Shown here in pieces: positions 1,365 through 10,954 of a stretch of 11,423 bases of DNA. The stretch is from Candidatus Adiutrix sp. (GTDB lineage: Bacteria > Desulfobacterota > Desulfarculia > Adiutricales > Adiutricaceae). The notes beneath the pieces were generated by a model, which had not been told where the DNA came from, made no database searches, and saw nothing but the letters and a program-made list of their open reading frames with translations. The DNA lies in assembly GCA_031285975.1 (NCBI GenBank), contig JAITVE010000201.1, positions 1-11,423 of the forward strand, read 5' to 3'. Position 1 is the first letter of the stretch; each line of letters opens with the position of its first letter. A program made the position numbers and the translations under genes.

Positions 1365-1393
1365 TTGAAAAATCGGGGGGAAATGAGTATAGT
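1365..1393 (+). promoter_or_regulatory. Sigma70-type promoter for the small RNA
   Basis: TTGAAA (1365-1370) and TATAGT (1388-1393) are separated by exactly 17 bp, each five of six to the -35 and -10 consensus. Transcription would begin near 1400. No plausible protein-coding gene follows on this strand before the terminator at 1466-1507, so the promoter appears dedicated to a short non-coding RNA. Confidence 0.65.
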
Positions 1394-1399
1394 AAAAAG

Positions 1400-1507
1400 A
1401 CTGAGGGTACTTGTGGCACCCCCGGTCGGGTGGGCAAGTCCCCCTGATGTTTTACATCAAAGTTATGCCCCGTGGGAATGGCAGTTCACACGGGGCAGTT
1501 TTTGTTT
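1400..1507 (+). ncRNA. Structured ~108-nt small RNA, candidate type I antitoxin
   Basis: This RNA is inferred from its own promoter (TTGAAA-17-TATAGT) and a strong terminator. It would fold into three consecutive hairpins. Hairpin A has ACTTG 1409-1413 with CAAGT 1435-1439 and CACCC 1417-1421 with GGGTG 1428-1432. Hairpin B has TGATGT 1445-1450 with ACATCA 1454-1459. Hairpin C is the terminator. The RNA converges on the - strand 29-codon gene and its T-tract overlaps that gene's stop codon (1506-1508). The apical loop of hairpin C is TGGCAG (1479-1484). With the next base, GGCAGT is complementary to ACTGCC of the toxin mRNA, which lies between its ribosome-binding site and start codon (1597-1602 on the + strand). 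The convergent layout is like Fst RNA I/RNA II. No known RNA family was recognised from the sequence. An unrelated structured RNA remains possible. Confidence 0.6.
1466..1507 (+). terminator. Intrinsic terminator of the small RNA, possibly bidirectional
   Basis: A 9-bp perfect stem (TGCCCCGTG 1466-1474, CACGGGGCA 1489-1497) is extended by GAA/TTC across a G-A mismatch, leaving the loop TGGCAG. On the + strand it is followed by five T, one G and three T (1499-1507), a classic intrinsic terminator. Read on the - strand it lies just after the toxin stop but lacks a T-tract, so toxin transcripts may end here only partly. They may instead end after the hairpin at 1409-1439, which on that strand is followed within about 8 nt by a five-T run. 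Confidence 0.8.
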
Positions 1508-1595
1508 AACGCTTCTTAAGCCAACGTTCGACTACAACTGCAACCAGGACGCCCGCCACAAAGGCTGACGCAACGTCCCCGAGGAACTCTGCCAT
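1506..1595 (-). CDS. 29-residue hydrophobic peptide, candidate Ldr/Fst-like type I toxin
   Basis: The ATG is at 1595 and the TAA at 1506-1508, too short for ordinary gene callers. Coding support comes from GGGAGG (1604-1609) 8 nt upstream of the ATG, a promoter 34 nt further upstream, and peptide character. The peptide begins MAEFLGDVASA and ends FVAGVLVAVVVERWLKKR: a short polar start, one hydrophobic span of about 12-15 residues (roughly 9-22), then a Trp-Leu and basic tail. That matches the shape of Ldr toxins of enterobacteria (as I recall, ending in a hydrophobic stretch then NWLNKRK) and more loosely Fst of enterococci, which act at the membrane. The Ala-Pro before the hydrophobic span in Ldr/Fst is missing here. 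The start codon sits in an inverted repeat (CTGCC/GGCAG, 1589-1601), which could limit translation. A harmless small membrane protein is the alternative. Confidence 0.65.
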   Translation of the reverse strand: MAEFLGDVASAFVAGVLVAVVVERWLKKR

Positions 1596-1635
1596 AGGCA
1601 GTACCTCCCTTCTTCAGAGAGACTTACCCACGGCC

Positions 1636-1664
1636 ATAATACACTGCCAGTGACGTTTGGACAA
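1636..1664 (-). promoter_or_regulatory. Promoter of the 29-residue peptide gene
   Basis: On the - strand, TTGTCC (1664-1659) and TATTAT (1641-1636) are spaced by exactly 17 bp. The -35 has four of six consensus bases and the -10 five of six. Transcription would start near 1629, giving a leader of about 34 nt that includes the ribosome-binding site. The promoter sits 8 bp beyond the stop codon of the upstream - strand gene (1672), so the small gene can be transcribed independently. Read-through from that gene is also possible, as no terminator separates them. Confidence 0.55.
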
Positions 1665-2580: not shown

Positions 2581-3782
2581 GTTCGCGCCGTCCTTTTTAT
2601 GAAAGTGAAGGCTGTCATCAGAAGGCCGGAGGCGGCCAGGGCGGCGCCGACAACGGTGAAAAATACGCGCAGGTCGTCAGTGCCCACGAGGCGGGCCACA
2701 GCGGGCTGAATAAAGGTAGAGACCACAAAAGCTACATAGATGGAACTGTTGACCAGGGCCCCGGCTGGGGCGGCCAGGCGGCGCGGCGAGCGGGCAATGG
2801 TTTCCTGGAGCAGGTAGGGCACGGTCAGGCCGCTGCCGAGCCCCCAGAGCGCCAGGGCCGCCACCACCCCCGAAAAGCTGTGGGAACGCGCCAGCAAAAA
2901 GTTCCCGGCGGCCATGAGGAAGAAAAAGAGTGTGGCGGTTTTCCGCCCCAGCTGCCCGTAAATCCAGCCGAAGGCAAAACTCACCGCGCCGATGGCCGCC
3001 GTCAGGACGCCGTTGGCCAAGCCCGTATCCGCCGCGTTGCCCAGGCCCTCCCCCTCAATGAAATAGGAGAGGGCCAGAAACATGGTGTTGCCCAAACTCT
3101 TGGAGATCAGGGCCAGCGCCAAAAGCCCCCACACCGCCCGGATAGCTCCGCCCTCCCCGGACACTTCCTCCGCCGGAGCCGCAGCGGCTGCGGCGGGGGC
3201 CTCCGCCTCGGCAACCGGGCGGGTGGGATTTTTTTGCAAAACCCGCTGGTGATAAAAAATAATCAAGATATCGGCCAGATACACGGCAAAGGCGTAGCGC
3301 CAACTCCAGAGCACCAGATAGCCGCTCAAAACCGTGAGGCCAATGGCCAGGATGTTGCTGGCCGCGCAGAATATGCCCATCACCGAGGGCGTTTCCCGTT
3401 CGGTGAAGTAGTCGATGGTCACCCCCACCACCATGGCCGTCACCAGGCCGTTGCCGAGGCCCAGCACGGCGCGGGTGAACAGCAGCCAGCGGATGTCCGC
3501 AATCAGCCCCCCGGCCAGGCCCCCGAGGGTGAAGATGGCCGAGCCCAACAGCACGCAGCCCTTGTTCGTCAAATAGCCCGCCGAGACCAGCCGCCCGGCC
3601 AGCACACTGGCCGGGATGACCACCAGCGAAGAGATGGTAATGATGAAGTTCAGGCCCGCGCGCCCCACGCCGGGCATGGCCTGGGCGATTTCGCTCATGG
3701 CCGGGATGAGCACGTAGGTGTCGGCCACCGGGTAGATGCCGATGAACGTGATGGCCAGCAGATAGGGCATTTTTTGCAGCAT
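2577..3782 (-). CDS. MFS family transporter, 401 residues
   Basis: This is a very hydrophobic protein with about 12 transmembrane segments in two halves, separated by a cytoplasmic loop at about 180-215 that carries an Ala/Glu/Pro-rich stretch. The motif A-like region GRLVSAGYLTNKG (63-75) and its counterpart GWIYGQLGRKTA (272-283) support the major facilitator superfamily, probably a proton-driven drug/metabolite exporter subgroup. The start chosen is ATG 3782, because AGGA lies 6 nt upstream. The in-frame GTG at 3806 directly follows the T-tract of the upstream terminator and has no ribosome-binding site. The substrate cannot be told from sequence. Gene order just after the ior operon allows, but does not show, a role in exporting its acid products. 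The stop overlaps the start of the next gene (ATGA). No clear promoter was seen in the short gap after the terminator. Confidence 0.88.
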   Translation of the reverse strand: MLQKMPYLLAITFIGIYPVADTYVLIPAMSEIAQAMPGVGRAGLNFIITISSLVVIPASVLAGRLVSAGYLTNKGCVLLGSAIFTLGGLAGGLIADIRWLLFTRAVLGLGNGLVTAMVVGVTIDYFTERETPSVMGIFCAASNILAIGLTVLSGYLVLWSWRYAFAVYLADILIIFYHQRVLQKNPTRPVAEAEAPAAAAAAPAEEVSGEGGAIRAVWGLLALALISKSLGNTMFLALSYFIEGEGLGNAADTGLANGVLTAAIGAVSFAFGWIYGQLGRKTATLFFFLMAAGNFLLARSHSFSGVVAALALWGLGSGLTVPYLLQETIARSPRRLAAPAGALVNSSIYVAFVVSTFIQPAVARLVGTDDLRVFFTVVGAALAASGLLMTAFTFIKRTART

Positions 3783-7833: not shown

Positions 7834-7889
7834 GGGAATTTTTCACTTGGAAGAACGCGACGTGTCGTTGCGGCGCTGCCTGCCTCCCC

Positions 7890-7993
7890 GCCGTCATTCC
7901 TGCGGAGGCAGGAATCCATTTCCAGAGAAGCGGCTTGCCGGCCAATAGTTGCTTCCGCTGGAAACGGCTTCCGGCTTTTGCCGGAATGACGGC
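7890..7993. repeat. Palindromic interspersed repeat (REP/MITE-like), 104 bp
   Basis: Terminal inverted repeats of 11 bp (GCCGTCATTCC at 7890-7900, GGAATGACGGC at 7983-7993) each belong to a local hairpin. These are ATTCCTGC/GCAGGAAT around GGAG (7896-7915) and TTCCGGC/GCCGGAA around TTTT (7969-7986). An inner pair TTTCCAG (7919-7925)/CTGGAAA (7958-7964) completes a near full-length cruciform. The sequence type (GTCATTCCTGC...GGAATCC, giving spurious peptides like SCLRRNDG or FLRRQES) is well known as an intergenic dispersed repeat in many proteobacterial genomes. It carries no gene and is the source of spurious ORFs here. It would form a long hairpin in buk-ptb read-through RNA. Confidence 0.8.
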
Positions 7994-8025
7994 CGAAGGG
8001 GGCCGTATGGCCGCAAAGCCAGCCA

Positions 8026-10886: not shown

Positions 10887-10938
10887 AAAAAACGCCCGGT
10901 TGCGCCCGTAATTTTACGGGCGCAACCGGGCGTTTTTT
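10887..10938. terminator. Perfect bidirectional intrinsic terminator
   Basis: A flawless 25-bp inverted repeat (10887-10911 against 10914-10938) is centred on TT, with six A at the left edge and six T at the right. It serves the peroxiredoxin gene (+) and the converging - strand gene whose stop is at 10955. It is symmetric, so both directions gain a GC-rich stem followed by a T-tract. Confidence 0.93.
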
Positions 10939-10954
10939 ACGATGAGAGCGGTTT

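Follow-up and report, generated by a model that had tools for sequence, protein, structure and literature searches.

The 11,423-nucleotide stretch of Candidatus Adiutrix DNA analyzed here (the window) carries, with a probability of about 0.88, a putative chromosomal type I toxin-antitoxin locus. A small hydrophobic peptide is encoded on the minus strand, a predicted antisense RNA lies opposite the 3' untranslated region (UTR) of its mRNA, and the leader directly upstream of the Shine-Dalgarno sequence (SD) is complementary to a 3' UTR segment between two hairpins. Comparison of related loci supports the peptide frame, the antisense promoter and the pairing of the leader with this 3' arm.

The locus is located between a methyltransferase-like gene (676-1347, with a Pfam match below the cut-off) and a gene at 1672-2580 that had no Pfam match. 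As claimed in the first-pass annotation, a minus-strand open reading frame (ORF) of 29 codons with an ATG start is present at 1595-1506, and its hydrophobic product, MAEFLGDVASAFVAGVLVAVVVERWLKKR, has an Ldr-like single hydrophobic span and an ERWLKKR tail. The ribosome-binding site assigned to this ORF was found upstream of it as GGGAGG (1609-1604, minus strand), and both promoter-like sites with the 17-bp spacing were recovered: TTGTCC-17-TATTAT on the minus strand (1636-1664, scoring 9/12), the candidate toxin promoter, and TTGAAA-17-TATAGT on the plus strand (1365-1393, scoring 10/12), the candidate antisense promoter. Between 900 and 2200, four such sites were found where 0.6 were expected. 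The promoter-plus-terminator unit described as facing the peptide gene is also there. From these two signals we predict a plus-strand RNA of ~105 nt (1400-1504; ~108 nt had been estimated), the putative antitoxin, that would terminate at a hairpin (1466-1497, with arms at 1466-1478 and 1485-1497) followed by AGTTTTTGTTT, the U-run lying at about 1498-1508.

Several features had escaped the first-pass annotation, namely a second hairpin with a U-run on the minus strand (1427-1394), the predicted toxin mRNA end there, beyond the antisense gene, an inverted repeat (1631-1614/1447-1430), the mRNA foldback that this repeat allows and the multi-copy nature of the locus. Since the first terminator-like site on the minus strand beyond the ORF is this hairpin (1427-1399, followed by TTTTT), the toxin mRNA should cross the antisense gene and end at about 1394, which would place the antisense RNA entirely within the toxin 3' UTR. 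The toxin mRNA predicted from promoter and distal terminator is ~235 nt long (1394-1629, minus strand, with its start 5-9 nt past the -10), and its terminator hairpin would, in the antisense RNA, double as a 5' hairpin. The inverted repeat was not reported by the repeat finder; it relies in part on G.U pairs, which limits its exact runs to 5 bases. Its leader arm (1614-1631, minus strand), whose first two bases possibly lie ahead of the transcription start, contains an anti-SD (aSD1) and could pair with either the SD or the 3' arm; the SD-like 3' arm (1430-1447, minus strand) lies in the toxin 3' UTR, and the plus-strand antisense RNA bears a leader-like copy at this position. A second anti-SD (aSD2, 1581-1586, minus strand) is formed within the ORF by codons 4-5 (UUC-CUC). 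Rfam gave no match at the gathering threshold.

Searches with the peptide revealed a multi-copy family in its own genome and in others. The genome that carries the window (78% complete, 417 contigs) yielded three further places with the peptide itself and two more with a profile (L052 and L053); of these five copies, L002 and L003 are clean and L004, L052 and L053 are divergent. The latter three form a subfamily whose leaders and 3' arms differ in sequence and whose SD is not followed by an ATG at the usual distance. The contig with L002 (C107) stops inside a second tandem copy, of which it retains the promoter and the beginning of the leader, so that contig breaks may conceal more copies. With the own genome included, 7 of 60 genomes gave a match at E<=1 (that in G052 lies inside another gene). 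Wider searches used profiles built from 15, then 27 peptides and again counted the own genome; at E<=0.5 they matched 16 of 37 genomes of the taxonomic family, where the weakest matches fell within other genes, and at E<=0.05 they matched 14 of 63 genomes of the class. In a sample of 395 genomes of the phylum, seven had a match at E<=0.002 (one in a 329-aa frame), as did 29 of 198 genomes around G367 (Desulfovibrionaceae-type) at E<=0.005. Three tandem copies ~320 bp apart are present in G003, which matches CP026657.1 (Deltaproteobacteria bacterium Smac51), and other loci occur in records titled Deltaproteobacteria, Desulfovibrio sp. and uncultured Desulfovibrionaceae metagenome-assembled genomes (MAGs), some of which presumably come from termite guts. 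G511, of the same family as G367, has its locus in common with a Desulfovibrionaceae record. Two IMG/VR contigs (L152 and L153) have one copy in common and a third (L154) bears another. A tblastn search of plasmid and phage records with a composed peptide gave no match. The L153 copy (3001-3078) is situated near phage portal and terminase genes plus two HicB-like genes.

From the 89 places collected, L054, L060, L061, L062, L105 and L151 were left out by hand because they were decayed, truncated at the end of a contig or not cleanly laid out; L054, L061 and L062 are the decayed-looking copies. Two more (L051 and L082) had no SD by the patterns used, leaving 81 loci, and removal of the duplicates L057, L079, L089 and L143 gave 77 unique loci. 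Profile matches in long frames of other genes (e.g. L013, L017, L028, L044-L047 and L076) were excluded.

The peptide is under purifying selection. Among 17 disjoint pairs of closely related ORFs, 87 of 162 differences were synonymous, where 29% would be expected (p 9e-11), a bias of the kind for which the first-pass annotation proposed a test, and the differences at codon positions 1, 2 and 3 numbered 52, 28 and 82. A peptide this short, matched by no NCBIfam family, might be a chance ORF amid regulatory signals, but its conservation, the coding selection and the covariation described below oppose this reading, which we regard as refuted.

The nearest known relative of the peptide is weakly indicated to be Ldr. 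The window peptide matched the Pfam Ldr_toxin profile (PF13940) with 17.7 bits (E 0.0038), below the curated cut-off of 27 bits, and among 27 family members matches at E<=1 were obtained for Ldr in nine (best E 0.00047) and for Fst in one (E 0.00081); generic membrane families match members too, as illustrated by TNFR_16_TM (5/27, best E 0.015). When the family profile was searched against 177635 PDB sequences, LdrD came out on top (E 0.023), the sole other match having an E of 8.5. Conversely, the Pfam Ldr profile gave a match above cut-off in 0 of 14 genomes searched, and 9 of the 22 weak matches listed there fall in loci of this peptide family; in the control genomes something was found at E<=1 in 6 of 14, with one match above cut-off. 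The proposal of an Ldr-like peptide thus stands for the hydrophobic span, the tail and the top PDB match, but not for the Pfam threshold. In Weaver 2020 (PMC7472228), a Trp at the membrane edge and a P/D/S/T-xxx-G motif are given as signs of the Fst/Ldr superfamily. The window copy has a Trp between its transmembrane helix and the charged C-terminus (ERWLKKR), but RW occupies this position in 13 of the 27 rows of alignment A3 (counted by eye), which means that the sign is not general in the family. In the transmembrane span, the window copy reads A-F-V-A-G in place of the motif.

That several copies per genome are tolerated could mean that the locus encodes a small membrane protein with a regulatory antisense RNA and no toxin. 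We consider this improbable in view of the weak but consistent kinship with Ldr, the tandem copies, the copies on viral contigs, the predicted translation locks and the decayed copies, all of which are usual traits of type I toxins.

We next consider the transcription signals across loci. When the antisense promoter was sought directly upstream of the antisense 5' hairpin, a site scoring at least 9/12 was found in 44 of 67 loci, compared to 2.9% of mononucleotide shuffles, and one scoring at least 8/12 in 60 of 67, compared to 15%; the spacer was 17 bp in 53 of these 60. This looser, hairpin-anchored test was run second, after the result of a stricter -10 rule was known; under the latter (A2 and T6 required), a score of at least 9 was reached in 18 of 67 loci and in 2.2% of dinucleotide shuffles. 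Judged from these sequence comparisons, the sigma-70-type antisense promoter appears to be real. The candidate toxin promoter is weaker: 13 of 68 loci have a site of at least 9/12 ahead of their leader, versus 2.2% of dinucleotide shuffles. At the distal, toxin mRNA terminator a U-run was detected in 53 of 67 loci, the other 14 being without a clear U-run by the pattern used. A possible U-turn loop, GUGUUA, was noted in the mRNA hairpin in 19 of 77 loci, against 1.9 expected from mononucleotide shuffles.

The foldback between leader and 3' arm is very probably real. In the window, the two arms (1631-1614 and 1447-1430) form 18 positions, 15 of them Watson-Crick and three U-G pairs. Across all 77 unique loci, the mean pairing energy of a leader and the 3' UTR of the same locus is -30.2 kcal/mol, compared to -24.6 kcal/mol for non-cognate combinations, and none of 10000 permutations reached the former value. 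The own 3' UTR was the very best partner in 10 of 77 loci and within the best four in 24, presumably because the paralogues have a common core. The pairing also covaries: in an alignment of 48 distinct arm pairs by their G run, columns 2 and 3 show all four Watson-Crick types (G-C, C-G, A-U and U-A), several other columns carry three, and in columns -4 to 10 a total of 620 of 662 cells are paired. These counts concern the 48 of 62 distinct arm pairs with a GGG start, and as the best-pairing registers were chosen, unpaired cells are undercounted.

The transitions that distinguish the leader from its copy in the antisense RNA are polarized. For 62 distinct segments with a score of at least 14, 92 of 116 transitions retain pairing in the mRNA through G.U pairs; counted by locus, the polarity was for mRNA pairing in 47, against it in three and even in 12. 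The corresponding p value of 1e-10 is optimistic, as the sites are not independent. Of the proposed RNAs, only the toxin mRNA has both arms, and the polarity therefore favours an mRNA that extends beyond the antisense gene. We also considered whether the leader copy in the antisense RNA might be a common protein-binding site or DNA operator, and set this aside since the transitions are polarized toward mRNA G.U pairs.

The effect of the foldback on the SD is a computed one, taken from equilibrium folding predictions. Folds were made for the 68 of 77 loci that reached a gapless score of at least 24; L011, L019, L052, L064, L072, L086, L107, L117 and L149 were dropped, several of which pair only with a gap and some of which are without a convincing arm. 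Since the 68 loci were chosen for a good leader-arm score, the foldback counts among them are partly circular, whereas the permutation test used all 77. L072, L107 and L149 represent a variant in which an internal loop interrupts the leader arm (GGGCAA ... CCCUC), which still pairs with the 3' UTR. In folds of the full-length mRNA, leader-arm pairing exceeded 0.5 in 54 of 68 loci, the foldback not being favoured in the other 14. Without the 3' arm, the SD was predicted to pair with the leader at a mean probability of 0.69 (0.91 for the window copy), compared to 0.14 in the full-length mRNA. On average this did not free the SD, because codons 1-8 took over its pairing; these codons captured the SD in 45 of 68 full-length folds, codons 4-5 (UUC-CUN) being the peak in most. 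With and without the arm alike, the SD was open at a mean probability of 0.27, and only 33 of 68 loci had a greater value in the full-length mRNA.

What did change was the predicted cost of opening the SD, which was 9.6 kcal/mol without the 3' arm versus 5.6 kcal/mol with it, and lower with the arm in 63 of 68 loci. Blocking the arm alone gave 9.4 kcal/mol (an increase in 67 of 68 loci, by more than 1 in 54), while blocking a neighbouring stretch gave 5.35 kcal/mol (up by more than 1 in five of 68). For the window copy the corresponding values were 6.2 (full length), 9.8 (arm blocked) and 6.2 kcal/mol (neighbour blocked). According to these models, the 3' arm would loosen the hold of the leader on the SD by ~4 kcal/mol, and the hold would return if the arm were covered; we therefore read the arm as a key, and the antisense RNA as the agent that removes this key.

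One alternative takes the foldback as an off-state lock, as in hok and AapA: the full-length mRNA would be inactive, its SD being occupied by the beginning of the ORF, and the active form would arise by processing. This agrees with the full-length folds, where SD pairing has a mean of 0.73 and involves codons 1-8 above all, with a peak at codons 4-5, whose Phe and Leu are also the most conserved residues of the peptide. The conserved Phe codon is TTC in 57 of 73 cases, compared to 18 of 64 at other Phe codons (Fisher 6.5e-9), a bias that suits such a lock and by which the RNA itself seems to be selected, although codon usage may also be biased in general close to the start. A comparable set of elements is described for AapA3 in PMC6733600, where anti-SDs occur upstream, within the ORF and within the 5'-3' pairing. 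However, removal of the 3' arm is here predicted to close the SD further (9.6 versus 5.6 kcal/mol), which is opposite to AapA, and among the removals compared only that of the leader would open it (4.7 kcal/mol). We consider the lock possible but doubtful, and lean slightly toward an activating foldback on the basis of the modelled opening costs.

Alternatively, the antisense RNA could act only via mRNA decay, the leader-arm pairing being a clamp for 5'-end stability and no translation switch. The overlap wholly within the 3' UTR would fit, as it resembles that of TxpA/RatA (PMC4147584), and the foldback would bury the mRNA 5' end. We consider this unlikely, as most of the leader bases engaged in the foldback would pair with the SD if there were no arm, which would be needless for a clamp. 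The rival readings overlap, and the probabilities behind our wording do not sum to 1.

The activating reading can be outlined as follows. In a newly made toxin mRNA, the leader anti-SD would hold the SD shut. Once the full 3' UTR is transcribed, its SD-like arm would pair with the leader, and this 5'-3' foldback would leave the SD under the weaker hold of the ORF start (codons 4-5), making translation possible. The antisense RNA, whose complementarity spans almost the entire 3' UTR, would capture the 3' arm without wobbles, such that the leader lock stays, and the duplex would probably expose the mRNA to RNase III. If the antisense supply failed, the peptide would be made and act on the membrane. 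The two transcripts, the involvement of RNase III and the toxicity of the peptide are inferred. A type I locus with a foldback switch, the direction of the latter weighed in, seems to us reasonably probable, while the whole chain including that direction falls somewhat short of even odds.

Two further features were noted elsewhere in the window. An imperfect palindromic repeat of ~120 bp (7880-8005) lies between two genes that look by eye phosphotransbutyrylase-like and butyrate-kinase-like; it has 77 matches in its own genome, both strands of one copy being counted apart, and represents a MITE-like or REP-like family. A long hairpin seen by eye at 10890-10940, between an AhpC/TSA-family gene and the next gene, is probably a bidirectional terminator.

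In the literature on type I systems searched for Desulfovibrio and Deltaproteobacteria, Ldr and Fst, T1TAdb and Smac51, the titles and abstract openings of the matches listed mention no such locus in this group, an earlier mention being possible. According to PMC12390103, no groups other than Proteobacteria, Firmicutes and Tenericutes were known to have type I systems until its cyanobacterial case; since Deltaproteobacteria were long counted among the Proteobacteria, we draw no claim of a new phylum from this. The present loci hint at unannotated toxin-antitoxin systems in Desulfovibrionaceae and in relatives of the termite-gut type. With 77 unique members, they offer tens of naturally occurring variants whose switch elements covary, and thereby a data set for antisense action at the 3' end.

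Ldr loci are multi-copy and tandem, and tandem multi-copy loci occur here as well. The peptide resembles that of Ldr/Rdl (enterobacteria, PF13940) in its single hydrophobic span and a basic tail that opens with Trp; Ldr is also its best PDB match and the sole Pfam match of the window peptide. In contrast to Ldr, it stays below the Pfam cut-off, an Ala replaces the Pro of PxxxG, and the loci are found in Deltaproteobacteria-titled genomes. The Rdl antisense RNA lies against the Ldr leader, whereas the predicted antisense RNA (1400-1504) is convergent and placed in the 3' UTR.

Weaver 2020 (PMC7472228) describes an Fst layout of convergent promoters, a common terminator, direct repeats and a leader stem-loop that sequesters the SD. 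With Fst/par RNA I-RNA II (Firmicutes, PF13955) the present locus has in common the convergent promoters, an mRNA of ~230 nt and, by prediction, the SD-sequestering leader stem-loop. The suggestion of an Fst-like convergent arrangement holds in this sense, but not for the direct repeats DRa/DRb or the common bidirectional terminator: between 1340 and 1680 only one 9-nt direct repeat was found, and it is not placed like DRa/DRb. Instead, there is an inverted repeat by which both RNAs bear the same motif, and two separate hairpins each have a U-run on their own strand. The antisense RNA is also longer than in Fst.

In Bacillus subtilis, SR4 pairing at the 3' end of BsrG lengthens an SD-sequestering stem, and in TxpA/RatA the antisense RNA overlaps only the 3' end (PMC4147584). 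The likeness to both is one of layout, in that the antisense RNA overlaps the 3' end only, and folding with the arm blocked predicts more SD sequestration, an effect of SR4's kind. The differences are that the antisense gene is here nested in the 3' UTR and that the switch would be a 5'-3' foldback with an SD-like arm. For AapA (Helicobacter), aSD1, aSD2 and a 5'-3' lock are described in PMC6733600. Long-distance 5'-3' pairing is a feature in common with AapA/IsoA and hok/Sok, and an anti-SD upstream plus a second one in the ORF a feature in common with AapA. Unlike in AapA and hok, the 3' arm pairs with the leader anti-SD rather than with the SD, and the antisense RNA is at the 3' end; 3' truncation is moreover predicted to close the mRNA, not to open it as in AapA.

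The suggestion in the first-pass annotation of a possible separate branch is therefore the right reading, since by the tests applied neither Ldr nor Fst membership held up. These loci look like a separate branch of type I toxin-antitoxin loci, Ldr-like in the peptide, Fst/BsrG-like in layout and with a covarying switch of its own. In PMC7472228, Fst is placed in Firmicutes and Ldr in enterobacteria, and the choice between a common ancestor and convergence is left open. A third branch from another lineage that combines features of both would bear directly on this choice.
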